Below, one piece after another: positions 49,043 through 64,000 of a stretch of DNA of 64,000 bases (position 1 is the stretch's first letter; each line of letters opens with the position of its first letter). Source of the stretch: Streptomyces sp. NRRL S-244 (GTDB lineage: Bacteria; Actinomycetota; Actinomycetes; Streptomycetales; Streptomycetaceae); the NCBI RefSeq assembly GCF_000717915.1, contig NZ_JOCX01000005.1, forward strand, positions 186,001 through 250,000, written 5' to 3'. The notes beneath the pieces were generated by a model. It had not been told where the DNA came from. It did not search any database and worked only from the letters and a program-made list of their open reading frames with translations. Both the position numbers and the translations under genes were made by a program.

Positions 49043-50482
49043 GTGACCCGGATCGTGATCATCGGCGGCGGACCCGGCGGGTATGAGGCGGCCCTCGTGG
49101 GGGCCCAGCTCGGCGCGGAGGTGACCGTCGTCGACTGCGACGGCCTCGGTGGCGCCTCCGTCCTCACCGACTGCGTACCTTCCAAGACCCTCATCGCGAC
49201 CGCCGAGGTCATGACGACCTTCGACTCGTCGTACGAGGAGCTCGGCATCGTCGTCGCCGACGACACCCCGCACATAGAGCAGGCCGCGCGCGTCGTCGGG
49301 GTGGACCTCGGCAAGGTGAACCGGCGCGTCAAGCGCCTCGCGCTCGCCCAGTCGCACGACATCACCGCGTCCGTCACCCGGGCCGGCGCCCGCGTCGTAC
49401 GGGGCCGCGGCAAGCTCGGCGGCCCGCAGGGCATCGACGGCACGCGCGACGTCATCGTCACCGCGGCCGACGGCACCGAGACGATCCTGACGGCCGACGC
49501 CGTGCTGATCGCGACCGGCGGCCACCCCCGCGAGATCCCGGACGCCATGCCCGACGGCGAGCGGATCCTGAACTGGACCCAGGTCTACGACCTCGACGAG
49601 CTCCCCGAGGAGCTCATCGTGGTCGGCTCGGGCGTCACCGGCGCCGAGTTCGCCGGCGCGTACCAGGCCCTCGGCTCCCGGGTGACGCTGATCTCCTCGC
49701 GCGACCGCGTGCTGCCCGGCGAGGACCCGGACGCGGCGGCCGTGCTGGAGGACGTCTTCCGGCGCCGCGGCATGAACGTCGTCGGCCGCTCCCGCGCCGA
49801 GTCCGCCAAGCGCGTCGGCGACCGGGTCGAGGTCACGCTCTCCGACGGCCGCGTCATCACCGGCACGCACTGCCTGATGGCGGTCGGCGCGATCCCGAAC
49901 ACCAAGGACATGAACCTGGAGGAGTCCGGGGTCCGGCTCAAGGAGTCCGGGCACATCTGGACCGACAAGGTCTCCCGTACGTCCGCGCCCGGCGTGTACG
50001 CGGCCGGCGACGTGACCGGGATCTTCGCGCTGGCCTCCGTCGCCGCCATGCAGGGCCGCATCGCGATGTACCACTTCCTCGGCGACGCGGTGGCCCCGCT
50101 GAACCTCAAGACGGTCTCGTCGAACGTGTTCACCGACCCGGAGATCGCCACTGTCGGTTACACCCAGGCCGATGTGGACGCCGGCAAGATCGACGCCCGT
50201 GTCGTGAAGCTGCCGTTGCTGCGCAACGCGCGGGCCAAGATGCAGGGCATCCGGGACGGGTTCGTGAAGCTGTTCTGCCGCCCGGGCACCGGAATCGTGG
50301 TCGGCGGCGTGGTGGTCTCCCCGCGGGCGAGCGAGCTGATCCACCCCATCTCGATCGCAGTCGACAACAACCTGACCGTCGAGCAGATCGCAAACGCGTT
50401 CACGGTGTACCCCTCGCTGTCGGGTTCGATCGCCGAGGTGGCGCGCCAGCTGCACACGCGGAAGACCGCCGGCGAGGCCTGA
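49043..50482 (+). CDS. lpdA: LpdA-type NAD(P)H quinone reductase
   Basis: 479-residue flavoprotein of the disulfide reductase superfamily, but altered at the active site. The FAD motif GGGPGGYEAAL, the NAD motif VVGSGVTGAEFAG and GVYAAGDVTG are intact. In place of the redox pair GGxCxxxxCxPSK it has GGASVLTDCVPSK, so one Cys is lost, and the C-terminal catalytic HPTLSE is YPSLSG, so the His is lost. Mycobacterium LpdA (Rv3303c) has the same changes and acts as a quinone reductase. The GTG at 49043 follows AGGCGGAG. I expect redox cycling of quinones, not a dehydrogenase-complex role. Confidence 0.88.
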   Translation: MTRIVIIGGGPGGYEAALVGAQLGAEVTVVDCDGLGGASVLTDCVPSKTLIATAEVMTTFDSSYEELGIVVADDTPHIEQAARVVGVDLGKVNRRVKRLALAQSHDITASVTRAGARVVRGRGKLGGPQGIDGTRDVIVTAADGTETILTADAVLIATGGHPREIPDAMPDGERILNWTQVYDLDELPEELIVVGSGVTGAEFAGAYQALGSRVTLISSRDRVLPGEDPDAAAVLEDVFRRRGMNVVGRSRAESAKRVGDRVEVTLSDGRVITGTHCLMAVGAIPNTKDMNLEESGVRLKESGHIWTDKVSRTSAPGVYAAGDVTGIFALASVAAMQGRIAMYHFLGDAVAPLNLKTVSSNVFTDPEIATVGYTQADVDAGKIDARVVKLPLLRNARAKMQGIRDGFVKLFCRPGTGIVVGGVVVSPRASELIHPISIAVDNNLTVEQIANAFTVYPSLSGSIAEVARQLHTRKTAGEA

Positions 50483-50491
50483 GGACGGCAA

Positions 50492-50521
50492 CCGCCCCAG
50501 GTCGAAGGGGACTTGGGGCGG
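50492..50521 (+). terminator. Hairpin after lpdA
   Basis: A stem of about 12 bp with one mismatch (CCGCCCCAGGTC with GACTTGGGGCGG) and a short loop, ten bases after the stop. Confidence 0.75.
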
Positions 50522-50656
50522 CCCCAGCGGGGGTGGAGTGACGTTCACTCAACCGCCCCGCCGCGTATACCACTAGTCGCCCTGCTTTATGGACAACTTC
50601 GGTATTCCGGCGCAAGGAGCTGAAACAAGACGGTCGTTGGGGTTACTGTCAGTTTC

Positions 50657-51613
50657 GTGTTCGCTGCAGAACGTCGCCAATTGATTCTCGAAATGGTGCG
50701 GGCCAACGGAGCGGTGTCGCTCCGGGAGCTCGCCCGCGTCGTCCAGACCTCCGAAGTGACCGTACGGCGGGACGTGCGGGCGCTGGAGGCCGAAGGACTC
50801 CTCGACCGCCGACACGGCGGTGCGGTTTTGCCGGGCGGTTTCACGCGGGAGTCCGGATTTCCGCAAAAGTCCCATCTCGCGACGGCGGAGAAGACCGCCA
50901 TTGCCGACGTGGCGGCCGGCCTCGTCGAAGAAGGCGAGGCCGTCGTCGTCGGCGCGGGCACCACGACCCAGGAGCTGGCCCGCCGGCTCGCCCGGGTGCC
51001 CGGACTGACCGTCGTCACCAACTCGCTGCTGGTCGCGCAGGCACTGGCCCACGCGAACAGGGTGGAGGTGGTGATGACGGGCGGCACCCTCCGCGGCTCC
51101 AACTACGCGCTGGTCGGCAGCGGGGCGGAGCAGTCCCTCCAGGGGCTGCGGGTCTCCCGGGCCTTCCTGTCCGGCAGCGGCCTGACGGCGGAACGCGGTC
51201 TGTCCACGTCCAACATGCTGTCGGCGAGCGTGGACCGGGCCCTGGTCCAGGCGGCGGCGGAGGTGGTGGTCCTCGCGGACCACACGAAGCTGGGCACCGA
51301 CACCATGTTCCAGACGGTGCCGACCGATGTGATGACCCGTCTGGTCACGGACGAGCCCCCGCCGCACGACGACCGCGCGGCCACGGAACTCCAGGCCCTC
51401 GCGGACCAGGGCGTCCAGATCACCATCGCCGGCGCCGTGGCCCCCGGCGGGAACGCCGACGGCATGGCGGGCCGCCGCCCGCGCCGCGAGTCCCCCCTCC
51501 CGGTGCAGCGCCGCGGCGGCCCCACCGCTCAACTCCGCAGCGCGGGCCCCCTCCCGGACCCCCAGCCGGGGGAGCGGGAGCGCGCGAGGGTGGCGGACAT
51601 GCGGCGGCGGTGA
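50657..51613 (+). CDS. DeoR/GlpR-family repressor
   Basis: 318 residues. N-terminal DeoR helix-turn-helix (RRQLILEMVRANGAVSLREL, TSEVTVRRDVRALEAEGLLDR) with HGGAVLP, then the DeoRC sugar-phosphate sensor domain (VGAGTTTQELARRL, VVTNSLLVAQAL, GGTLRGSNYALVG, VVLADHTKLG). The C-terminal 60 residues are an added Pro/Arg-rich tail. GTG 50657 has no Shine-Dalgarno; TGAAAC (50621-50626) and TACTGT (50644-50649), 17 bases apart, would give a leaderless message. DeoR-type proteins often control sugar or nucleoside genes, so it is one candidate reader of the operator described here; its own promoter lacks that site. Confidence 0.9.
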   Translation: MFAAERRQLILEMVRANGAVSLRELARVVQTSEVTVRRDVRALEAEGLLDRRHGGAVLPGGFTRESGFPQKSHLATAEKTAIADVAAGLVEEGEAVVVGAGTTTQELARRLARVPGLTVVTNSLLVAQALAHANRVEVVMTGGTLRGSNYALVGSGAEQSLQGLRVSRAFLSGSGLTAERGLSTSNMLSASVDRALVQAAAEVVVLADHTKLGTDTMFQTVPTDVMTRLVTDEPPPHDDRAATELQALADQGVQITIAGAVAPGGNADGMAGRRPRRESPLPVQRRGGPTAQLRSAGPLPDPQPGERERARVADMRRR

Positions 51614-51676
51614 GGAGCGTGTGCGGCGCCGCGATCTGTCGGAGTTTCTACCGCCATATCTACGCGGCTGGCAGAA

Positions 51677-51705
51677 ACGGGTCGCCGGAAGATCCGGCGA
51701 CCCGT
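51677..51705. terminator. Strong hairpin between the DeoR gene and the immunity gene
   Basis: A perfect 13-bp stem (ACGGGTCGCCGGA with TCCGGCGACCCGT) and a 3-base loop, between convergent 3' ends, so it can serve both. Confidence 0.88.
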
Positions 51706-51726
51706 CACTTGATCAGCGCTTGCCGA

Positions 51727-52062
51727 TCATGAGCTGCTTGAGCGGTGCTCCTCCTCTGCCAGCTTTCGGGCAAAGGCGACACGGCGGTTCAGCAATTCCA
51801 CCCACATGTTGTCTGTGTTCAGTGGGTAGTCTGCCGTCTGAGCGCTTGGTGCGGTCTCGATCACATGTAGCAAAGTCATCGAGAGGCCGAAGCAGTCGTC
51901 GGAGCCGAAGATCGTTGTCAGAGCCTGAGCTTCTTCATCCGTGACCGGTTCCGGGATCTGCTCGAGCAGGTGCTCTGTCTCAGTGATCTCCTCTACAGGG
52001 GCTTCCTCGGACGGGAACGGGCCTGCGTCAAGTAGATCCTGAACTTCCTTTCGGATTCCCAT
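51727..52062 (-). CDS. Probable immunity protein to the adjacent RHS toxin
   Basis: 111 residues, very acidic in the first half (EEAPVEEITETEHLLEQIPE), with a helical central part and a short Ser-rich end; no signal peptide, so cytoplasmic. The ATG at 52062 is eight bases after the stop of the RHS toxin gene, with AGGGGA as ribosome binding site, the standard place for a polymorphic toxin immunity gene. Two 60-base lines counted by hand in this gene have 33 and 34 G or C (55-57%), well below the neighbouring genes. I recognise no family; the role is inferred from position. Confidence 0.72.
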   Translation of the reverse strand: MGIRKEVQDLLDAGPFPSEEAPVEEITETEHLLEQIPEPVTDEEAQALTTIFGSDDCFGLSMTLLHVIETAPSAQTADYPLNTDNMWVELLNRRVAFARKLAEEEHRSSSS

Positions 52063-52070
52063 GTGATCCC

Positions 52071-55000
52071 CTAGATCATTCCGATGCGCCGATAGTAAGC
52101 CATCATCTCCAGGATTCCCTTGTTGAAGTAGCTGGCGTCGTTGTACTGCAATTTCCCTATTCGGCGCATGTCCCAGATGTCCATGGCGAGCACCGTCCTG
52201 AAGGGAAGGTTGGCGTCTGCCCGCTTGGTCGCACCGCCTCGGCCCCCGTAGGTACGGGTCAGCTTGTGATCCTCACGCTTCATCACCACGGCACCACCGT
52301 CCTTGCGGTCGGTGTGTTCGAGGGCGGCCTGCGGCATGTGGTGGGCCTCCAGGCCATCGCCGGGCACACCCGGGTCCAAGTCGCCGAAGCGCCCACCATC
52401 GTTTTCGTACACAACCTTGCACGAGGCGTTGTGGACCAAGATGGGCGAGGATCCCGCAAGCACGTAGTAGGTGTGCTTCGAAGCCACCGTGAGGTTGTGG
52501 ACCTTCTTCTGCTCGGTCCACCGCTTGACCTCGGTGACTTGCACCCAGCTGCCCGAGGACGTGCGCAGCCACTGACCGGCGCTGAGGTCGGTGGCGTTAA
52601 GCCACTTGCCCATGGACGGGACCCAGAACGGGTGGCCGTCTGTGGCGGTGAGGTGTTCGGTGGCTTCGCCCTTCGCGCCGTCGGTGTCGATTGTTATCTC
52701 GACCAGCTTCTTCTGGCCCTCACCGATGATCAAAGCTGCGACGGATTCGCCGGTAGTGGCGCCCGTCTCAGCCTCGGTGGCCAGGACCTTGTCCTCGAGT
52801 CGTACGTCCTCGATGGGCTTCGCTGAGCCGTCGGCCATCAGGACCTGCGTACCGGGTACGAAGCTGTTGCAGCCCTCGTTCGTCTGAGAGCCGCCGGAAT
52901 CGTCTTCCTTGCCCTTCGACTTCTTCGGCTCGTCGCCCTTCTTCGCCTCCGACGACTTCGACGCCTTGCCGTCGCCGTCGGCCTTCTTGGCCTTCGTCGC
53001 GGAGGACTTGCCTTGCTTGGCCGCCGTAGCCTTGGCTTCGTCGGCCTTCTTCGCGGCCGCAGCTGCTGCCTCTTGGACCCTTCTTCGGGCCGCTGCGGCC
53101 TCCTCCTCCAGTTTTCTCGCGCGTTCGGCGGCTTCCTCTATCTGCCGTTTCCACTCGGCCAGGTCCTCGGCGTACTTGGCCATCGCCTGCTGGTAGCGCT
53201 CGACCCGCCTGAGGATGTCTCGCGCCAGGGCGAGTTTGTGCGACCAGCTGTTGAAGGCATCCCACGCACGGTCCAGTGCCTTCAGGATGCGCTTGGCACG
53301 GCCCGCGAAGGGCAATGCCGCATCCAGGGCGAGGCCGGCGCACGCGCCCCAGTCGCCGCCCAGGCAGTCGCGGATGTCGTTGTACCCCGAGGCGTCCTTC
53401 AGGATGCCCATCGCGACTTCGAGCGCGATGTCCAGGGCACTCTTGCCCTGGATCATGTTCGCCCAGGCCGCCTCGGCGTCCGAGAAGTCCTTGATCGGCA
53501 TCGTAGGAGGCGCGATCGACAGGCCGCTGGGGTCGCTGAACGTCACCGGCGAGTTGTTCGCGTAGACGTACGGGTTCATCTGTTTGGGCTCGTTGTAGTC
53601 GACGATGGGGTCGACCGACTGGAACCGGCCTGTCGCAGGGTCGTACTCACGTGCACCTAGATGCACGAGCCCGGTGGTCTCGTCTACCTCTCCGCCGACG
53701 AAGCCCTTCTTGCCGGGCCACAGCGAGGGGGCCGCACCGCGGACCTCGCCATACGGTGTGAACTTGCGCCGGGTGACCGCCATGGTGGTGGCGTCCACGG
53801 TCGTGGTCGCTGTGCCGTTGTGGTCGGCCATCAGGTACGACGTCGTGATGACGCCGTCCTTGGCCGTCTTGACCATCGTCGGGCCGGCCGGGTGGCCGTA
53901 GTAACGCGTGCTCTCCAGCTTGCCCGCCGCCGTGAGCTTGACCTCGGTGCCCGGCAGGTAAAGCGTCGTGCCCGACGGCTCACGCTTGATCAGGCGGCTG
54001 CCGCCGGCGTCGTAGACGAAGTCCGTCGCCTCCGCACCCTTGGTGACCTTCGTCAGCTGACCCGAGGCGTCCCATTCCAGATTCTGGGTGTCGCCCTGGA
54101 TGGTGCGGGTTTTGGTGTTGCCTGCCGCATCGTAGGTGTAGGACTCGGTACGGGCGCCGCCCGGGCCGGTGGTGTCGACCTTCTTCAGACCGTTCGCACC
54201 GGCCTGACCAGCCGTGCCGTAGGTGTAGGTGCGGGTGACGTCCTTGGTGAGGTCACCGATCGGGGAATGCTGGACTTCCTTGGTGCGGTTGCCCGCTGCG
54301 TCGAAGCTGTACGAGCTCCAGTACGCGCTCGGACCACCGACCTGGGGCTTGGAGCCGGGGCCGGCCGCGTTCGGCTGGGCCGCGCAGTCGTCCGTAGCCG
54401 TCCAGGCCTCGTTCATGCGGCGCAGATAGTCGTACGCGAAGCACTGCACGTCGGCAGTGGCGGCCGGGCCTTCCTTGTCGGTGACCTTCAGGATGTTGCC
54501 GACAGCGTCGTAGTCGTATGACGTGTCGTTGATCCGGCTGGGCGACTGCTCTTTGTCGTTGACCGTCCGGGTGAGAAGGCGTGTCTGCTCGTCGTAGAAG
54601 TTCGTCGAGTAGACCTGGGATCCGGCCGGGCCGGACTCCGTGCGCAGCACGTCGCCCATCGGCGAATAGTCAACATTGCCGACGAAGGTCTTGCCCTGGA
54701 CGCCCATGATGGTGGGCAGTTCCAGGTGGTTGTACTTCATGGTGGTCGTTTCGGCGGGCAGTCCACCGATTGCGGGCTGACTCGTCCACGCCGTCAGGCC
54801 AGTGTTGGGCCGATAGCCGTTGGCGAAGCTGTACGAACCGGCGAGGGCACCCTCCGACGCGGGAATGGTGATCTTCGAGCCCGTCGGGCGGTACTCGCTG
54901 TCGTAGCCGGTGATCTCTTGCGTGTAGGCGTTGCCGTTGACATAGCGTGTCGAGGACACCGGCAGGCCGACGGCACCCGGAAGGGTGTCGTACGTGGTCG

Positions 55001-58000
55001 AGGTGAGCTTCGGGCCGGTCACCGAGCCGTCATGGGTGGCAACGACGCGGCCCAGGTCGTCGTACTCCGGGGCGATGACCTTTCCGCGTGCGTCTGTCGT
55101 GGTCGCCAGCCGGTCGCCCTGGCCGTACGTCATCGTCGTCGTGCCCTTGTCAGGGTCCGTCTGCTTGGTCTGGCGACCGCGGATGTCGTACTCGAAGCCC
55201 CACTTGTCGCCCGCCTGGTTGACGACCGACTCCAGCGCCCCGCGCTGGTTGTACGCGTACGTCGTCTTGTCGTACGCCCCCGTCGGCGAGTCCGAGCGGA
55301 AGAAGCGCAGCTCCGTCTTGCGGCCCGCGCCGTCGAGGAAGGCCCGGGTCGGGGTCTCGCCCTTCGGGGGGTCGACGGTGATGTTGTCGCCGCCGTACGA
55401 GGTGGTCGTACGGGAGGTCTCCAGACCGAACTTCCGCGAGATCTGCGCGGTCGAGCGGCCGGAGCCGTCGTACTCGGTCACCGTCGACGACGGGACCTCG
55501 TTGTCCTTGGGCTCCCACTGGACGCCGGACGGAGCGCCGGCGGTGTAGTAGGCGCCGTTGCTCTTCCAGACCTGGCCGAGGCTGTTGTAGAAGGTGTCGG
55601 TGATGAGCCGACCGCCTCCGAGGGCCTCCATCTGGGTCTGGCGGATGCGCAGGCTGCTGTCGTAGATGTCGTAGCTGGTGCGGTACGTACCGTCGTCCAG
55701 CAGGCTCTTGTTGGAGATGACGACCGGACCGTCGGTGCGGACGTCGTACGAGAACTCGCCGTCCGGGGACTTCGAGAGCGGGTCGCGGTCCGGGGACCAG
55801 ACCTTGAGGAGCCGGCCCAGGCCGTCGTACTCCATCACCTGGCGGCGGCCGTTGGTGTCCTGCTTGGCCAGGACCGAACCGCGGCCCTGGTCGGTCTCCG
55901 TCGTCTGGGTGTGACCGGCGGAGTTGGTGGTGACGACCTTGGTGACGATCTGTCCCGAGGCGGGGGTGTAGTCGACCTTGGAGGTCTTGCCGAAGACGTC
56001 GGTCGTCGTCTTCATGCGGCCGTACGTGTCGAAGGTCGCGCTGCCGTCCGTGGTGTACACCGGGTTGCCGCCCGAGTATCCGGACAGCGACTCGGTGGAC
56101 TTCAGGTTGCCCGCCGCGTCGTAGTACATCCGCGCGTCGGACGTCACGTCCGCCGGGCGCTGCACGTTCGCCGCGTCACACGCCTTCGCGACCGTCTCCA
56201 CCCGCTTCTGGCGGGCGATGATCCAGCGGGTCTGGTCCTCGTCGTACTCGTAGCGCGTGCAGCTGTCGTCCGACGGGTCCGCGACGTCGCCGAGGTTCGA
56301 CACCGACTGGGCGAAGCCCCGGTTGTCGTACGTCGTGCTCATCGCCGTACGGCGCCAGCCGCGGCCGTCGGACAGCAGGATGCGGGAGTTGACCCCCGTG
56401 GTCTGCTGGACGAAGGACTGCTGGGGCTCGATGTCCTCCTCGGGCACCGCGCCCTTGCGCTGGCGCGTCGCCGTGGGGCCGTACAGCCACGGGGTGTAGG
56501 TCGTGGCCGCTTCGAGCGCGCCGCCCTCGCCGTTGTACGCCAGGACCTCGCGGGTCTGGCCGGCGTAGAGGCGGTGGTCCGCCATCTCGTTGCCCTCGGA
56601 GTCCTTGACCTTGACCGACTTCTTGCCGCCCGAGGGGGCGAGCCGGTCACCGTCGAGGCCTCGGAAGAACAGCGTCTCCGTCATGGAGCGCTTGTCGGGG
56701 GCCTGGCCGATGAAGGTGCGCACCTTCTCGTAGCCGCGCCACTGGGACCAGGTGCGCGTCTTGGGACGCATCATCTCGGTCTCGTCGTCGTACGCCCACG
56801 CCGGGTTGCCGAGGAACTCGTACTCGGTGCGCCGCGTCGGGGAGTTGCCGTTGCGGTCCTCCTCCTGGACCCAGTCGACGACGTACTTGTGGAACCAGTC
56901 CGTGACGTAGAGCTTCTTCTCGTGCTGCGGATCGGTCGGGTCCGGGATCTCGGAGATCACCGGGTAGCAGCGGAGGGTGTTCGTCTCGGGCGAGGTGGGC
57001 ATGACGCGCGGGTTGGCCGCGCGGCACTCCGGGTCCTTGTAGTGGGCCAGGATGGTCGAGCCGGTCTCGCTGTCGATCGCCTCGATGCGGTAGCGCAGGT
57101 ACGGCGGCTTGCCGTCGGCGGCGCCGTCCACGCGGTTGGGGAGCTGCTTGCCGCGGAACTTCACCGGCGGCAGCGCCGTGTCCGTGCCGTTCTTGCCCGT
57201 GTGCTTGATCTCGCCCAGCCACAGCGGGTAGTCCGTGCCGTCGCCGGTCATCGGGAAGTCCTGGGTCAGCTTCCAGGAGTCCACCGGCTTGCGCGCGGTC
57301 CCGTTCCACACCGAGGTGCTGACCTCGGTCAGGCGCTTGCGGGTGAAGAAGGTCGGCGTGAACCGGCCCTTGCACTCCTCGCCCGCCGCGCAGAGCTGGT
57401 CACCGGGGGTGTCGGGCCAGTTCTTGGCGATGTCCCAGGCGACCTCCGGCTTCAGCTTCGCCGGGTCGCAGTCGAAGGAGGACGTGACGAGGCAGCGCTC
57501 GGCGACACCGAAGTTCACCTGGGCCGGGGCCTCGGCGAACAGGTTGTCGTTGCGCAGACCGTACGAGATGTGGTCCAGCCAGCCGGAACGGTCGTACGCC
57601 CGGGCGGTCGAACCACCCGCGATCTTGTAGTTCGAGCCGTAGTGGTTGACCTCCTTCTGGTACCAGTAGGTCATCGCGTTGCCGCGCGGGTCCACGACGT
57701 AGTCGAGGTTCCAGCGGTAGGCCTGGTCGCACACCGCGTCGGCGAACGTCGCGTTGTAGCAGGGCTCACCGGGCTGGTTGCCGTAGACCGGGACGTTCCA
57801 GGTGGAGTTGGTGACGGGCTTGCCCGTCGTCCAGCCCGGGACCTTGTTCAGACCGAAGTAGAACTGGATGCCCTGGGGGTTGGTGAACCTCCAGTGGTCA
57901 CCCTCCTTGTCGCCGTTCGAGGCGCCCTGGAGCAGCTCGATGCGCGAGCCGTCGTCCTTCGCCGGCCGCCACTTCTTCGTGGTGTCGTCGAGGACGAGCT

Positions 58001-59360
58001 GGGTGGAGCCGCCGTTCAGCGACATGGTGACCATCGGTGCGCCGTGGCACAGGTCGCCGGTGTCGTCCTTCGGGTTGTTGAACCCGGAGCCGGCCTTCTT
58101 GTCCTGGCTGCACGGGACGTAGCCCCGCTCGATGTAGTTCGAGGCCAGGTCCCAGCCGTCGCCGACCCACGAGGTCTGCTGCGCGGAGGCCGACGTACGG
58201 CCGTCGATCTGGGCGCTGGAGTAGCCGAGGGAGAGCGAGGGGCTCGGACCGCCCAGGGAGGCGGGGATGTCCAGCGGGTAGGACCAGGAGAAGTCACCCG
58301 CCGAGCCGCCGGCCTGCCAGGAGCCCGAGGGGTTCAGCGAGGTGGCCTTGAACGTGCCGTTCGCGCCGTCGGCGCCCGGGCTCGCGGCCAGCGTCATGCC
58401 CTGGCTGCCCGCGGCGGCCGCGGAGACCGCGGTGTTCGCGGCCGACAGGTTCATGTCGGCCTTGTCCGACGGGACGGCCGACTGGGCGGGGGTGGAGGAC
58501 GAGGACGCCGTGAACGTCGCGATGAGCTTGCCGGTCACCGGGTCGTTCTTCGTGGTGACCGGGATGCTGCCCTTGCACTCGGGCTTGTTCGGCGTCGTCA
58601 CCGCACAGGCGGGAACGGCCGTGAAGCGGAGTCGGGAACCCCAGCTGCCGCCGTACGCGTTCTTGAACGCGTCGTAGTCGAGCTCGACGGAGACGGGCGC
58701 CGCCGCCTTGCCCGTGTCGGTGCGCTTCACGTTCAGCAGCAGGCTGTTCGCCAGGCCGGCCTTCTTGGCCGCCGTCTGGTCGAGCAGGTCGACCTTCAGC
58801 TTCACCTGCTCGGCGGGCGCGTCGGCCGCAAGGCTCTGCGGGGCGGCGCCGGACTTCGCACCGGCCTTCGGGCCCGCTGCTGCCGAAGCCGGGAGCGCGG
58901 CGACCGTCACCGGGAGGGTGCCCGCCTTGACGGGGTTGCCCGCGGCCTTCGACGGGCCGAGGGCGAATGCCCCCGCCGTGCCCTGGGGGGCCGACTTCAG
59001 GCTGACGACCGGCGGTGCGGACGCGTCAGGCAGGGCGATTTCCGCCGAACCCGCCTTCGGCCAGGCGATCTTCGGCGCGGAGGACTTCCACGCCTTCTTC
59101 TGCGACTCGGCGGGGCCCGCTGCGGGCTTCCCGGTGACGGGTGCTCCGCCGACCTTCGTGAGCTTCTGCAGTCCCGGCTTCTTCAGGTCGGAACCGGCCG
59201 CCATGGCGGGGGTGGCGGTGAGCCCGGCGGTCAGCATGCTGAGCGCCAGGACCGGTATCGGCCACCGCCAGACACGCCTCAGAGGCGCACGCAAAGCGTG
59301 CGCCTGGGATCTCTTCAAAATTCGAACACTCCAAGCCGTCGCGCGCGGTGGTTCGGCCAC
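52071..59360 (-). CDS. RHS/YD-repeat polymorphic toxin with Hint domain and nuclease-like tip
   Basis: Secreted 2429-residue protein. The start is GTG 59360 (TTG 59321 is possible; neither has a clear ribosome binding site), giving a signal peptide (WPIPVLALSMLTAGLTATPAMA in pieces). A beta-rich N-terminal region follows, then dozens of RHS/YD repeats (for example YDAAGN, YDGLGR) that form a shell, and the RHS core end (LGAREYDPATGRFQSVDP). After a Lys/Ala/Glu coiled coil comes a Hint domain (about 2164-2311, from CNSFVPGTQVLMADG to VHN, with TDGH in block B). The last 118 residues, with EAHH at about 2338-2341, are the likely nuclease tip. An immunity gene follows at eight bases. Confidence 0.88.
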   Translation of the reverse strand: MAEPPRATAWSVRILKRSQAHALRAPLRRVWRWPIPVLALSMLTAGLTATPAMAAGSDLKKPGLQKLTKVGGAPVTGKPAAGPAESQKKAWKSSAPKIAWPKAGSAEIALPDASAPPVVSLKSAPQGTAGAFALGPSKAAGNPVKAGTLPVTVAALPASAAAGPKAGAKSGAAPQSLAADAPAEQVKLKVDLLDQTAAKKAGLANSLLLNVKRTDTGKAAAPVSVELDYDAFKNAYGGSWGSRLRFTAVPACAVTTPNKPECKGSIPVTTKNDPVTGKLIATFTASSSSTPAQSAVPSDKADMNLSAANTAVSAAAAGSQGMTLAASPGADGANGTFKATSLNPSGSWQAGGSAGDFSWSYPLDIPASLGGPSPSLSLGYSSAQIDGRTSASAQQTSWVGDGWDLASNYIERGYVPCSQDKKAGSGFNNPKDDTGDLCHGAPMVTMSLNGGSTQLVLDDTTKKWRPAKDDGSRIELLQGASNGDKEGDHWRFTNPQGIQFYFGLNKVPGWTTGKPVTNSTWNVPVYGNQPGEPCYNATFADAVCDQAYRWNLDYVVDPRGNAMTYWYQKEVNHYGSNYKIAGGSTARAYDRSGWLDHISYGLRNDNLFAEAPAQVNFGVAERCLVTSSFDCDPAKLKPEVAWDIAKNWPDTPGDQLCAAGEECKGRFTPTFFTRKRLTEVSTSVWNGTARKPVDSWKLTQDFPMTGDGTDYPLWLGEIKHTGKNGTDTALPPVKFRGKQLPNRVDGAADGKPPYLRYRIEAIDSETGSTILAHYKDPECRAANPRVMPTSPETNTLRCYPVISEIPDPTDPQHEKKLYVTDWFHKYVVDWVQEEDRNGNSPTRRTEYEFLGNPAWAYDDETEMMRPKTRTWSQWRGYEKVRTFIGQAPDKRSMTETLFFRGLDGDRLAPSGGKKSVKVKDSEGNEMADHRLYAGQTREVLAYNGEGGALEAATTYTPWLYGPTATRQRKGAVPEEDIEPQQSFVQQTTGVNSRILLSDGRGWRRTAMSTTYDNRGFAQSVSNLGDVADPSDDSCTRYEYDEDQTRWIIARQKRVETVAKACDAANVQRPADVTSDARMYYDAAGNLKSTESLSGYSGGNPVYTTDGSATFDTYGRMKTTTDVFGKTSKVDYTPASGQIVTKVVTTNSAGHTQTTETDQGRGSVLAKQDTNGRRQVMEYDGLGRLLKVWSPDRDPLSKSPDGEFSYDVRTDGPVVISNKSLLDDGTYRTSYDIYDSSLRIRQTQMEALGGGRLITDTFYNSLGQVWKSNGAYYTAGAPSGVQWEPKDNEVPSSTVTEYDGSGRSTAQISRKFGLETSRTTTSYGGDNITVDPPKGETPTRAFLDGAGRKTELRFFRSDSPTGAYDKTTYAYNQRGALESVVNQAGDKWGFEYDIRGRQTKQTDPDKGTTTMTYGQGDRLATTTDARGKVIAPEYDDLGRVVATHDGSVTGPKLTSTTYDTLPGAVGLPVSSTRYVNGNAYTQEITGYDSEYRPTGSKITIPASEGALAGSYSFANGYRPNTGLTAWTSQPAIGGLPAETTTMKYNHLELPTIMGVQGKTFVGNVDYSPMGDVLRTESGPAGSQVYSTNFYDEQTRLLTRTVNDKEQSPSRINDTSYDYDAVGNILKVTDKEGPAATADVQCFAYDYLRRMNEAWTATDDCAAQPNAAGPGSKPQVGGPSAYWSSYSFDAAGNRTKEVQHSPIGDLTKDVTRTYTYGTAGQAGANGLKKVDTTGPGGARTESYTYDAAGNTKTRTIQGDTQNLEWDASGQLTKVTKGAEATDFVYDAGGSRLIKREPSGTTLYLPGTEVKLTAAGKLESTRYYGHPAGPTMVKTAKDGVITTSYLMADHNGTATTTVDATTMAVTRRKFTPYGEVRGAAPSLWPGKKGFVGGEVDETTGLVHLGAREYDPATGRFQSVDPIVDYNEPKQMNPYVYANNSPVTFSDPSGLSIAPPTMPIKDFSDAEAAWANMIQGKSALDIALEVAMGILKDASGYNDIRDCLGGDWGACAGLALDAALPFAGRAKRILKALDRAWDAFNSWSHKLALARDILRRVERYQQAMAKYAEDLAEWKRQIEEAAERARKLEEEAAAARRRVQEAAAAAAKKADEAKATAAKQGKSSATKAKKADGDGKASKSSEAKKGDEPKKSKGKEDDSGGSQTNEGCNSFVPGTQVLMADGSAKPIEDVRLEDKVLATEAETGATTGESVAALIIGEGQKKLVEITIDTDGAKGEATEHLTATDGHPFWVPSMGKWLNATDLSAGQWLRTSSGSWVQVTEVKRWTEQKKVHNLTVASKHTYYVLAGSSPILVHNASCKVVYENDGGRFGDLDPGVPGDGLEAHHMPQAALEHTDRKDGGAVVMKREDHKLTRTYGGRGGATKRADANLPFRTVLAMDIWDMRRIGKLQYNDASYFNKGILEMMAYYRRIGMI
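52428..52871 (-). other. Hint autoprocessing domain inside the RHS protein
   Basis: Residues about 2164-2311: begins with Cys (GCNSFVPGTQ), has the block B motif ATDGH and ends in VHN. The next residue is Ala, not Cys, Ser or Thr, so splicing is impossible but cleavage after Asn, freeing the toxin tip, is possible. Confidence 0.78.
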
Positions 59361-59710
59361 CGCGCTAATGGGCCAACGGCGCTGAACCTAACAAGGGAGC
59401 ACGCGGTGCGTCGAAGGCTTCCGGTGTGCTTATAAACGGAATTCCGGCCTCCGGGTGCAGGTCAGCGAGTTGCGAAAAGGTTGCACAGCGAAAGTGTCGA
59501 AGTTCTCGCGGGAATCTTGTGGAACCTCCGACGGTCCCGGCCCATCGGGGATTTCCGTCCGGAAAGGGTGCCGTCGGCTGCTACAAATCATTCGAACAGT
59601 CGGGTGGCCGACCGTCAGGATGGCTCAAAGTCGTCCGCGGCGGGAGGTCGTCCCAGTCATCGGTCGCCGCTCCGGCGCGGCCACCGCACCAACCCGTTGA
59701 GGACCTGTCA
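59361..59710. other. 350-base divergent promoter region of the toxin and the large secreted protein
   Basis: I see no gene here. The region is AT-richer than the surrounding genes (TTATAAACGGAATTCC at 59430-59445, and 59575-59600), as expected for two divergent promoters. No operator of the nucleoside type is present and no clear -35/-10 pair could be fixed. Confidence 0.5.
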
Positions 59711-62700
59711 GTGAGACCATTCACGACGCGCGCCCGCGTCGACGATCCGCCCTCCCGCAGAACGCCGGTGCTCGCCACGGCGACCGTGCTGACCGCCGCG
59801 TTGACCTCCACACTGCTCGGCGGTCTGCCCGCCGTGGCCGCGGGCAAGTCCGGCGCCGCCGCTGGCGACAAGGTCAAGGAGCGCCTGGCCGACGCCGCCG
59901 CGGAGACGAAGGCCAAGGGCGAGGCGAAGAAGTCCGGTAAGCCCGTCGAGATCGAGTCGAAGCGCACGGAGACGGACGACGTCTGGGCGAACCCGGACGG
60001 AACGCTGACTGCCAATCACGCGCTCGTGCCCGTACGCGTGTACCGCGGCGGCAAGCTCGTGGACGCGGACGCCACCCTGGCCAAGCAGTCGGACGGGCGC
60101 ATAGCCCCGGCCGCGACAGCCGTCGGCCTGTCCTTCTCCGGCGGGGGCACGGGCGCGCTGGCGACCATGCGCAAGGACGGCCGGGACGTTTCCCTGACCT
60201 GGCCGACGCCGCTGCCCGCGCCGAAGCTGGAGGGCAACAGCGCCACGTACACGAACGTCCTGGAGGACGTGGACCTGCGCATCAGCGCCGACGTGAGCGG
60301 CTTCTCGCACCAGATCGTCGTCAAGACGCGCAAGGCCGCCGAGAACCCGGCCCTCGCCAGCCTCGACTTCGGCCTCGAGGGCAAGGGCGTCACCATCCGC
60401 AAGGAGGCGAGCGGCGAGCTCCGCGCGGTGGATCCGGCCGGCCAGACCCTCTTCAGCGCCGCCAAGCCGCAGATGTGGGACTCCGGCGCCGAGAAGATCC
60501 TGCCCGAGTCCACTGCCGGAACGACGGGCCCGGCGCCCGCCCCGGCCCCGAAGGCTGCCGCTCCGAAGGCCGCGGACGCCGCCAAGACCTCCGGCCTGCA
60601 GGCGGCCCCGGCCGCCGGGGCCGCCGCCCAGGCCCCGGCCCCGGTTCCGCCGGTGCCCGCCGTCGACGGCATCTCGAACGGGTCCAAGGAGGCCGACCTC
60701 GGCGTCGACCTCAAGGGCTCCAAGCTCACCCTGAAGCCCGACCGCAAGCTGCTCACGGACGCAGCCACCACCTACCCGGTCGTCATCGACCCGGTGTGGC
60801 GGGACGACTGGAAGTCGGCCTGGGCGATCGCCTACAAGCACACCGCCTACGCGAACTCCGCCAACACCAACTACTGGAACGGCGGCACGCTCAGCAAGGA
60901 GGCCCGCGTCGGCTGCGCCAAGGACGGCGCCAACGGCGGCACCGTCTGCGCGAAGACCTTCTTCCAGGCCGGCATGGGCGCCATGTGGGACAAGCAGATC
61001 CTGGAATCCACCTTCCGCATCCAGCAGAAGTACGCGGGTTCCTGGAGCTGCCAGTCCGGTCAGCTCCAGATCTGGGACACCGACGCCATCGGCGGCGGCA
61101 CCACCTGGAACAACCAGCCCGCCTGGAAGCGCATGGTCGACGCCTCCGGCCAGTCCTTCGGGGGCCGCAACTGCCCCGGCGACGGTGACACCATCGAGCT
61201 GAACGTGACCTCCGCGGTCGCCGACGCCGCTCGTTACCACTGGCCGGCGTGGACCATGGGCCTGAAGTCCGCGAACGACAACGTCGACGTGTCGTGGCGC
61301 AAGTTCAACCCGGACAGCGCCCGCATCTCGACCAAGTTCAACACGCTGCCCACCACCCCGTACGAGCGCAGCTCCAGCCCGTCGGTCGCCTGCAACGGCG
61401 GCCAGATGGGCACGACCGACAACGTCGTGCTGCGCGCCCGCGTCTCCGACGCCGAGGACAACTCGCTGACCGCCGAGTTCCACTACTGGAACGCGAACGA
61501 CTACGGCACGCTGAAGACCGCCCGCGTCCCCGTGGCCAGCGGCAACATGGCCCAGCTGACGATCCCCGCCGCGGGCCTGGGCAGCAACACCTACCGCTGG
61601 GACGTCCGCGGCAACGACGGGACGGCGGACGGCCCCTGGGCCGGACAGTGTCTGTTCACCATCGACGCGACCCGCCCCGCCTCGCTCCCGGGCGTGTCCT
61701 CGGCGCAGTTCCCCGAGAACGAGCCGGACAACACTGGCTACGCCCGTACCGAGGGAACGTTCAAGCTGACCTCGGGCGGCGAGAACGACATCACGAAGTA
61801 TCAGTGGTGGACCGAGTCCGACCCCAAGGTCCAGGAGGCCAGCCCGGCCGCGCCCGGCGGTTCGGTGGACGTCAAGTACAAGCCGACCGCGGCCGGCCCG
61901 CAGGTGATGTACGTCCGTAGCCTGGATGCTTCCAACAACCGCTCGGATCTGAAGTCCTACCTCTTCTACGCCAAGCGCCAGCCGGTGCGCGACAAGCCCG
62001 GCGACCTCAACGGCGACGGCACCGTCGACCTGTGGAGCGTCGACCCGGGCTCCGGCCAGCTGTGGGTGCACCCGGGCAAGGGCGACGGCTCGTTCGGCCT
62101 GTCCAGGAAGCTGGACCACGCCTCCTTCGCCAACGTCAAGTCGATGAGTCATCGCAACAGCTGGAGCGAGGACCTGATCGAGGACCTCCTCGTCCTGCGG
62201 CCGCAGAACGGCGACCCCAGTCGCAATACGCTGTGGGTCTACCCCGGCAAGGGCGACGGAGACCTCAAGCCCCTGGACGCCAAGGGGTTCGAAGTGACGG
62301 CCTTCGAAGACGGTGTGAACGACCACAACCACTGGGCGCAGGCCGACCAGGTGGTCTCGATCGGCAGCGTCAACGACGACAACGGCGACGGCAAGACGGA
62401 CGACGACGACGTGCCCGACATGCTGATCAAGGAGGGTTCCAAGCTCTGGCTCTACCTCGGGACGCTGACCGGAGAGGTGGCAATCCCCGGTTCCGAGCCG
62501 ATCCTCCTCGGCAACGCCGACTGGCAGAACATGACGATCATGACGCCGGGTGACCTGAACGGTGACGCGCTGCCTGAGATCTGGGCCCGCGACACGGTCA
62601 GCGGCAAGATCCACCAGTACACCAGCAAGAAGACCACCGCCAACACCTCGCCCGCGTTGGTCGACCTGACGGTGTACGGAGACCCGGCCGTCCGGACGGC

Positions 62701-64000
62701 CTCCATCGGTACGGGCTTCACCAGCGCCGCCTACCCGCACCTGTCCAGCGACGGCGACTTCGAGAAGGACGGCTACGCCGACCTCTGGTCGCGCGACGGC
62801 AACGGCCAGATCACCGAGTTCCCGGGCCGCGCCCTGAGCGGCGGATCCGTCTTCGGCCCCGGCCGCAAGCTGGTCCTCGGCGGCACGCCGTGGTCCGAGT
62901 GCCAGGCGTTCACCAAGCCCGGTACGACCACCCCGCGCCAGCTGTGCGGACCGATCCTGGCGAAGTTCAACGCCGCGGGCGGCACCGCCGCGCTCGGCTA
63001 CCCGACCACCGACATCACCGAGTCGACCGACGCCGTCGGCCGCTTCGTGCACTTCCGCAAGGAAGGCGAGAGCAGCGACAACGGCTCCATCTACTGGCAC
63101 CCGAACACCGGTGCCTGGACCATCGTCAACGGCATCCGCCAGAAGTGGATGAGCCTGGGCGCCGAACGGGGCGTCATGGGCTACCCGACCTCCGACGAGG
63201 CCGTGACCTTCGACAACAACGGCTGGTTCAGCACCTTCAGCGGCGGTGGCGGCGGGGCCATCTACTTCACGTTCGAATTCAGTGGCCAGTCCGTCAGGGG
63301 CACCATCTACAAGAAGTACATCGAGCTCGGCGGCCCCAGCGGCCCGCTCGGCTACCCGACCACCGACGAGACCAACGCCCCCGACGGCGTCGGCCGCTAC
63401 AACCACTTCCGCCACAAGGGGCAGACCTCCGACACGGCGTCCATCTACTGGACGACCACGACGGGCAAGGCCTGGTCGGTCCGGGGCACGATCCGCGAGA
63501 AGTGGTTGAGCCTCGGCGGTGCGGAGAAGAGCTTCCTGGGCTACCCGCAGTCGGACGAGTACGACGTCTACGGCGGCCCCCGCGAGGACTTCTCGGGCGG
63601 CTACATCCGCCACAACCACACCACGGGCGTCAGCGTCGAGCACAAGGCGAACGACCGCACCATGGACAAGCGCACCGAACTGGGGGGTGACTTCAACGGC
63701 GACGGCCGGGCCGACGTGGCCACCGTCTACGACTTCGGCAGCGACGCGATGGCGCTCTACGTCGCGCCCGGCAAGGCCGACGGCAGCGGATACGGCGCCC
63801 CGGTCCTCGGCTTCAACAGCGGGGTGTGGAACTGGCGCGTCAAGCAGTCGCAGTGGGTCGTCGGCGACTTCAACAACGACGGCCGCGACGACCTGGCCGC
63901 ACTGTACGACTACGAAGACGCCAACGGTCTGTTCACCTTCCTCGGCAACGCCGACGGCACTTTCACCAGCCTGCCGCGCAGCGCCTACGTCGGCCCGGGC
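59711..64000 (+). CDS. Giant secreted DNRLRE/FG-GAP/LGFP repeat protein, 3' end outside window
   Basis: The frame is open from GTG 59711 (GAGGA seven bases before) to the window end: 1430 codons, no stop. Parts in order: a signal peptide, a charged linker, a beta-rich domain with a Pro/Ala-rich insert (about 275-310), a DNRLRE-type domain (from YPVVIDPVWRDDW, about 353 on), two or more FG-GAP/VCBS segments with calcium-type motifs (GDLNGDGTVDLW at about 764, later GDFNGDGRADVAT, GDFNNDGRDDLAA), and four LGFP-type repeats (LGYPTTD, MGYPTSD, LGYPTTD, LGYPQSD). Streptomyces often pairs such a protein with an RHS protein. It is divergent from the toxin gene and may help deliver or display it. Confidence 0.85.
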   Translation, partial: MRPFTTRARVDDPPSRRTPVLATATVLTAALTSTLLGGLPAVAAGKSGAAAGDKVKERLADAAAETKAKGEAKKSGKPVEIESKRTETDDVWANPDGTLTANHALVPVRVYRGGKLVDADATLAKQSDGRIAPAATAVGLSFSGGGTGALATMRKDGRDVSLTWPTPLPAPKLEGNSATYTNVLEDVDLRISADVSGFSHQIVVKTRKAAENPALASLDFGLEGKGVTIRKEASGELRAVDPAGQTLFSAAKPQMWDSGAEKILPESTAGTTGPAPAPAPKAAAPKAADAAKTSGLQAAPAAGAAAQAPAPVPPVPAVDGISNGSKEADLGVDLKGSKLTLKPDRKLLTDAATTYPVVIDPVWRDDWKSAWAIAYKHTAYANSANTNYWNGGTLSKEARVGCAKDGANGGTVCAKTFFQAGMGAMWDKQILESTFRIQQKYAGSWSCQSGQLQIWDTDAIGGGTTWNNQPAWKRMVDASGQSFGGRNCPGDGDTIELNVTSAVADAARYHWPAWTMGLKSANDNVDVSWRKFNPDSARISTKFNTLPTTPYERSSSPSVACNGGQMGTTDNVVLRARVSDAEDNSLTAEFHYWNANDYGTLKTARVPVASGNMAQLTIPAAGLGSNTYRWDVRGNDGTADGPWAGQCLFTIDATRPASLPGVSSAQFPENEPDNTGYARTEGTFKLTSGGENDITKYQWWTESDPKVQEASPAAPGGSVDVKYKPTAAGPQVMYVRSLDASNNRSDLKSYLFYAKRQPVRDKPGDLNGDGTVDLWSVDPGSGQLWVHPGKGDGSFGLSRKLDHASFANVKSMSHRNSWSEDLIEDLLVLRPQNGDPSRNTLWVYPGKGDGDLKPLDAKGFEVTAFEDGVNDHNHWAQADQVVSIGSVNDDNGDGKTDDDDVPDMLIKEGSKLWLYLGTLTGEVAIPGSEPILLGNADWQNMTIMTPGDLNGDALPEIWARDTVSGKIHQYTSKKTTANTSPALVDLTVYGDPAVRTASIGTGFTSAAYPHLSSDGDFEKDGYADLWSRDGNGQITEFPGRALSGGSVFGPGRKLVLGGTPWSECQAFTKPGTTTPRQLCGPILAKFNAAGGTAALGYPTTDITESTDAVGRFVHFRKEGESSDNGSIYWHPNTGAWTIVNGIRQKWMSLGAERGVMGYPTSDEAVTFDNNGWFSTFSGGGGGAIYFTFEFSGQSVRGTIYKKYIELGGPSGPLGYPTTDETNAPDGVGRYNHFRHKGQTSDTASIYWTTTTGKAWSVRGTIREKWLSLGGAEKSFLGYPQSDEYDVYGGPREDFSGGYIRHNHTTGVSVEHKANDRTMDKRTELGGDFNGDGRADVATVYDFGSDAMALYVAPGKADGSGYGAPVLGFNSGVWNWRVKQSQWVVGDFNNDGRDDLAALYDYEDANGLFTFLGNADGTFTSLPRSAYVGPG

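Follow-up and report, generated by a model that had tools for sequence, protein, structure and literature searches.

Background

The closest described relatives of the locus reported here are the RHS/HINT polymorphic toxins, in which, according to the available text of a survey (Zhang et al. 2012, PMC3482391), tip and immunity gene are exchanged in one event. Two further systems bear on the chemistry of such a tip. TseN of Acidovorax citrulli, which acts with its partner TsiN, is a demonstrated DNase and antifungal type VI secretion system (T6SS) effector whose fold was reported as new (PMC12574953, as available in part), and Tde5, studied with Tdi5a and Tdi5b, is described in the accessible part of its report as a beta-beta-alpha-metal DNase toxin with a strand-strand-helix core and three conserved histidines (PMC13392607). 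We analysed a stretch of 64,000 nucleotides from Streptomyces sp. NRRL S-244 (hereafter 'the window', with positions counted from its first base), which carries an RHS gene whose last 118 codons encode a putative toxin tip, followed by a gene for a 111-residue partner. There is good support at this locus for an exchanged toxin-immunity cassette attached to an RHS-HINT body. The fuller reading that we favour, at a probability of roughly two in three, is that of an exchangeable cassette at the 3' end of the RHS gene, in which the tip would most likely act as a nuclease, and probably on DNA, with the partner as its neutraliser.

Exchange of the tip and partner at the RHS locus

The RHS gene (52071..59360, reverse strand) encodes 2429 residues, arranged as an N-terminus, an SpvB-like part, RHS/YD repeats, an RHS core, a HINT domain and the toxin tip. 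The N-terminus has a hydrophobic, signal-like segment (judged by eye only), the SpvB-like part gave a weak match under the cut-off of the model, and the repeats in the body matched PF05593 (Pfam). The RHS repeat-associated core domain (residues 1868-1947; 53520..53759, reverse strand) matched TIGR03696 (NCBIfam) with E 1.8e-18, over the curated cut-off, and the pre-toxin HINT domain (residues 2164-2311; 52428..52871, reverse strand) matched PF07591 with E 4.3e-19 over profile positions 3-137 of 137. The HINT domain ends in ...LVHN, the predicted self-cleavage site, and the tip (118 residues and stop codon; 52071..52427, reverse strand) begins immediately after it. The candidate immunity gene (51727..52062, reverse strand) lies behind the tip after a gap of 8 bases (52063-52070), and its product is predicted to be all-helical and acidic (isoelectric point (pI) 4.2). 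An earlier sequence-only reading had given the same lengths, coordinates and spacing, which were correct, and had proposed an exchanged cassette, partly on the basis of its low GC.

For the 450 residues before the tip, 77 of 120 genomes, counting that of the window, had matches at E <= 1e-20, and the best match outside that genome, 87% identical, lay at the same locus in genome G071. At the DNA level the two loci were 94.6% identical over 49767-51614, 86.0% over 52428-54280 and 91.6% over 54180-59418. For the segment between the first two of these stretches (51615..52427, reverse strand), comprising the tip, the partner and an intergenic part, BLAST gave no match at the orthologous locus, where G071 carries a different tip and a different downstream open reading frame (ORF). 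Upstream of the RHS gene only patches at 76-81% identity were found, as far as 60809, and no DNA similarity to G071 was found over 60809-64000, so that it is on the downstream side that the flank is conserved. With like flank and RHS body around another tip and ORF, the G071 locus demonstrates the exchange directly and bears out the exchange proposed earlier; either of the two lineages may have changed, between which a single comparison does not decide. The G071 tip (L060, reverse strand) had no Pfam match, and with its own downstream ORF it forms another likely exchangeable pair.

Whether the exchange included the HINT domain was judged against a second RHS locus in the two genomes (G000:C25 vs G071:C40). 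At the swapped locus 145 of 150 upstream residues, 109 of 148 HINT residues and 22 of 79 tip residues (background level) were identical, compared with 146 of 149, 128 of 148 and 128 of 133, respectively, at the control. HINT divergence was thus greater at the swapped locus, yet HINT domains outpace the chassis even without a swap, and exchange of the HINT together with the tip is plausible rather than shown. The second RHS paralogue in both genomes (L061, L062) ends in the same third tip, which had no Pfam match; judged from the aligned sequences, that locus retained its tip while the one in the window changed. In the closely related strain Streptomyces sp. 2132.2 (P0003) the tip was 99% identical on a nearly identical chassis, and in Streptacidiphilus (P0004) it was 73% identical on a chassis that was poorly alike.

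Between the partner and the convergent gene downstream (50657..51613, forward strand), which belongs to the flank conserved in G071 and is presumably, from the look of its sequence, a DeoR-type regulator, lies an inverted repeat with perfect 12-bp arms and a loop of 3 bases (51678..51704), a probable terminator. The repeat falls within the segment not common to the window and G071.

Base composition of the cassette

The GC content rose from the partner (57.4%) and the tip (61.6%) through the HINT part (residues 2161-2311; 63.4%) to the RHS body (residues 1-2160; 68.1%), and GC at third codon positions (GC3) followed the same order (0.67, 0.81, 0.85 and 0.92, respectively). Only 0.3% of 357-nt windows over the RHS body reached the low GC of the tip and none reached that of the partner; the dip extends mildly into the HINT domain. 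Lines of 60 bases starting at 51781, 51841, 52081 and 52141 held 33, 34, 33 and 33 G+C, in agreement with the 33-34 counted by hand in three lines earlier, and the line at 52021 held 29. The lower GC of tip and partner relative to the rest of the RHS gene had therefore been described accurately, although as a ground for exchange it is insufficient by itself: in 19 of 20 relatives, from hosts of very different GC, tip GC and GC3 were below those of the preceding stretch (up to 900 nt). Low GC is thus a trait of the cassette across the family, and alone is no proof of recent import.

Conserved residues and predicted activity of the tip

Conservation was assessed over 149 distinct sequences (the 120 listed short or partial proteins together with the tips collected before, after merging of identical entries and with gaps excluded per column). 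D83 was invariant (149/149), and P32, Q33, R77, L80 and D86 (148/149 each), H54 (147/149), H30 (140/142), H29 (136/142) and D24 (138/139) were nearly so. H29 and H30 (52338..52343, reverse strand) belong to an HHMPQ motif and close a predicted strand (residues 26-30); H54 (52266..52268, reverse strand) ends a predicted helix (51-54) that follows a second predicted strand (45-50), and D83 to D86 (52170..52181, reverse strand) form a DxxD motif in a long helix. The EAHH motif noted earlier is present at residues 27-30, but near-invariance is confined to its two histidines and does not extend to E27 and A28. The predicted order strand (HH), strand, helix (H) would fit that of beta-beta-alpha-metal nucleases.

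The tip had no match in the libraries searched (Pfam and NCBIfam included), and none of 19 members matched the HNH/EndoVII toxin models of Pfam (AHH, SHH, EHHH, LHH, WHH, GHH and others) at E <= 10, in a scan whose filters remove most matches above E ~0.1. The best and only outstanding structural match of the tip model was TseN (PDB 9J9W), over 111 of 118 residues and below usual significance; the aligned ranges, rather than residue pairs, favour H54 as the equivalent of H254, provided that the chain is numbered from the construct start. The 9J9W chain was not among the sequence-search matches of the tip, at a sensitivity that does not exclude kinship, and the Tde5 structure (12FS) was not among its structure matches. 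Taken together, conservation and modelling suggest that the tip is probably a histidine-dependent nuclease and most likely a DNase. The metal-dependent nuclease suspected earlier is supported by residue conservation, by the strand-strand-helix order of the prediction and by a suggestive match to TseN, though not by an assay.

What the computations show is the layout of the genes, the exchange at the locus, the linkage across phyla and the conservation of residues; cleavage, nuclease chemistry, target, neutralisation and secretion are read from these. In the mechanism that we infer, the RHS shell of the presumably secreted protein would present the tip, and the HINT domain would probably cut after ...VHN and release its 118 residues. 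The core would adopt a strand-strand-helix, TseN-DNase-like fold in which H30 is the likely catalytic base and H54 holds a metal, together with H29 or the D83/D86 helix. The acidic all-helical partner would probably bind the basic tip and cover its active site, which would protect the producer and its kin.

Two unrelated partner families behind one tip family

Carriers of the tip family comprised 18 proteins of RHS length, 22 genome loci and, at E <= 1, 166 proteins that were short or partial (120 of them listed), three sets that overlap in part. The hosts included Actinomycetota, Bacteroidota (Hymenobacter), Pseudomonadota (Lysobacter, Gilliamella, Burkholderiales), Verrucomicrobiota (a metagenome-assembled genome (MAG) of Akkermansia) and a Riflebacteria MAG. 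A candidate partner was present at all 22 genome loci, in one case convergent. The window's partner family followed the tip in the same orientation at 12 of the 22 (including L019, whose tip frame is interrupted), and at L013 it was found on the opposite strand (L013:2277-2615), about 38 bases from the toxin gene and convergent with it. Eight loci (L003, L007-L011, L014 and L020) had instead a second, unrelated family, roughly 190 residues long (alignment A5, seven members; L020 assigned by eye), for which the one member scanned had no Pfam match, and the most distant tip (L023) had an Imm30 protein. Profile comparison of the window's partner family and the second family revealed no likeness (0.3%). 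Seven tips with the second partner formed one group with moderate support (90/85) in a tree that leaves out L019, L020 and L023, which suggests a single replacement of the partner.

The model of the window's partner was all-helical (predicted local distance difference test score 90.8) and had no convincing match in the PDB; the partner matched nothing in Pfam, Imm30 included, and in a single comparison with one Imm30 protein the probability was 0.3%. Partners were acidic in 23 of 23 cases (pI 4.1-5.3) and tips mostly basic (pI > 8 in 18 of 19), a pairing that fits an inhibitor covering a DNA-binding site, by analogy with Tdi5a on Tde5. Conserved linkage across phyla strongly supports tip and partner as a putative toxin/immunity pair, as had been supposed before, and its novelty holds within the libraries searched.

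Distribution of tip, sister family and stand-alone partners

The tip is rare in the genus, with matches in 7 of 392 Streptomyces genomes at E <= 1e-3, among which G251 represents a sister family, G137 is probably a chance match and G379 holds a partial tip and a partner frame with a stop. Four Streptomyces plasmid records (two of S. rimosus, two of S. longwoodensis) bear the tip in HINT proteins, followed by the window's partner family in the S. rimosus plasmid and by the second family in that of S. longwoodensis (two records, by eye); a search of phage records for the tip gave no matches. The sister family of RHS tips (alignment A6; example L078), reached via G251, matched the tip family at 97.0% (E 9.2e-11, 107 columns), compared with 0.1% for a control against the partner family, and by this profile comparison is homologous to it. 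It shares the positions of H30, H54 and D83 and has NHIP or NHMP instead of HHMPQ, position 29 being N in 10 of 10 aligned members. Neither family matched Pfam at usable scores. The sister family occurred in 12 of 295 Streptomyces genomes, including the window's own, which holds a second related RHS tip of the NHIP type (G000:C6:85512-85886; L085, L093).

The window's partner family was more widespread: 48 of 392 Streptomyces genomes had matches at E <= 1e-3, some of them weak or partial, and only four of these genomes were among the seven with a tip match. In a set of 12 loci, ten were stand-alone and two tip-linked, and at none of the ten was a tip found in about 3.3 kb; these copies formed one clade (support 100/99), separate from the tip-linked ones. 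Such copies may serve as defences that were kept, or the protein may have a different role. Upstream of some of them (L066-L075; L072 and L075, for example) lies a frame that resembles an IS110-type transposase.

Alternative explanations

The cassette could be real and exchanged, with a tip that is an RNase or another His/Asp-dependent enzyme, which we regard as rather unlikely. The predicted strand (HH)-strand-helix (H) order suits beta-beta-alpha-metal nucleases, and the sole outstanding structural match is a demonstrated DNase; that match is under usual significance, likeness to the TseN fold leaves the substrate of the tip unfixed, no sequence family of tested activity matches it, and several two-histidine RNase toxins are listed in the available part of the survey (PMC3482391). 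It is more improbable still that the 111-residue partner is no dedicated immunity protein but a helical protein of general binding function, which has a cellular role of its own and was recruited to a place beside the toxin. The excess of partner-bearing over tip-bearing genomes and the separate, tip-free clade of ten copies would suit such recruitment, for which Tdi5b, reported as a co-opted partner for the DNase Tde5, is a precedent (PMC13392607, as available in part). Against it, the partner family stands immediately behind the tip at 13 of 22 loci in several phyla, and in the tree the linked copies separate from those that stand alone.

Least probable, and in our estimate very much so, is that nothing was imported into the window's lineage, low GC being ordinary for a fast-evolving tip and G071 having changed instead. 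The family-wide GC trait and the single comparison available leave room for this; the locus was nevertheless exchanged either way, with nothing matching between a flank and chassis at 86-95% DNA identity, and few Streptomyces genomes have the tip, of which a relative occurs on a poorly alike chassis (P0004).

The exchanged cassette, with its probable DNase tip, adds a toxin tip family with a clear set of putative catalytic residues and two partner families that are unrelated to each other, all three without a match in the libraries searched, as well as a clean natural example of a single RHS locus with its tip-immunity end swapped. A broader proposal, tentative and on balance doubtful, is that the TseN fold marks a nuclease superfamily, widespread and uncatalogued, to which RHS tips in at least five phyla belong and one Actinomycetota branch of which switched to an unrelated immunity family, while the original immunity family persists toxin-free in about one in nine Streptomyces genomes as a stand-alone defence. 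If the TseN link is true, a DNase class known from one T6SS effector would become widespread. The stand-alone partner genes make 'immunity without the toxin' directly testable.

Comparison with known systems

The system is of a known kind, and the libraries searched gave no match for its tip or for either partner family. In common with the RHS/HINT systems as the survey describes them in its available text (PMC3482391), the window has RHS repeats and core, a HINT domain adjoining a variable C-terminal tip, differing tips on a constant body and a candidate immunity gene behind; unlike those systems, its tip and partner fit no library family searched. With TseN/TsiN (PMC12574953) it shares a toxin domain with a histidine, essential in TseN, and an adjacent partner, although no sequence similarity between the pairs was detected. 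TseN acts as a T6SS effector and carries a nuclear signal, and the available part of the report mentions no HINT domain for it, whereas the tip in the window is RHS/HINT-borne, and TsiN is described there as alpha/beta, whereas the window's partner is predicted to be all-helical. Tde5, likened here by its description, is likewise a T6SS effector, unlike the RHS tip. According to the accessible part of its report (PMC13392607), Tde5 resembles the tip in being a toxin family with unrelated immunity families; Tdi5a, like the window's partner, is an acidic all-helical inhibitor, and the fold of Tdi5b is also found away from toxins, comparable to the stand-alone partner copies.
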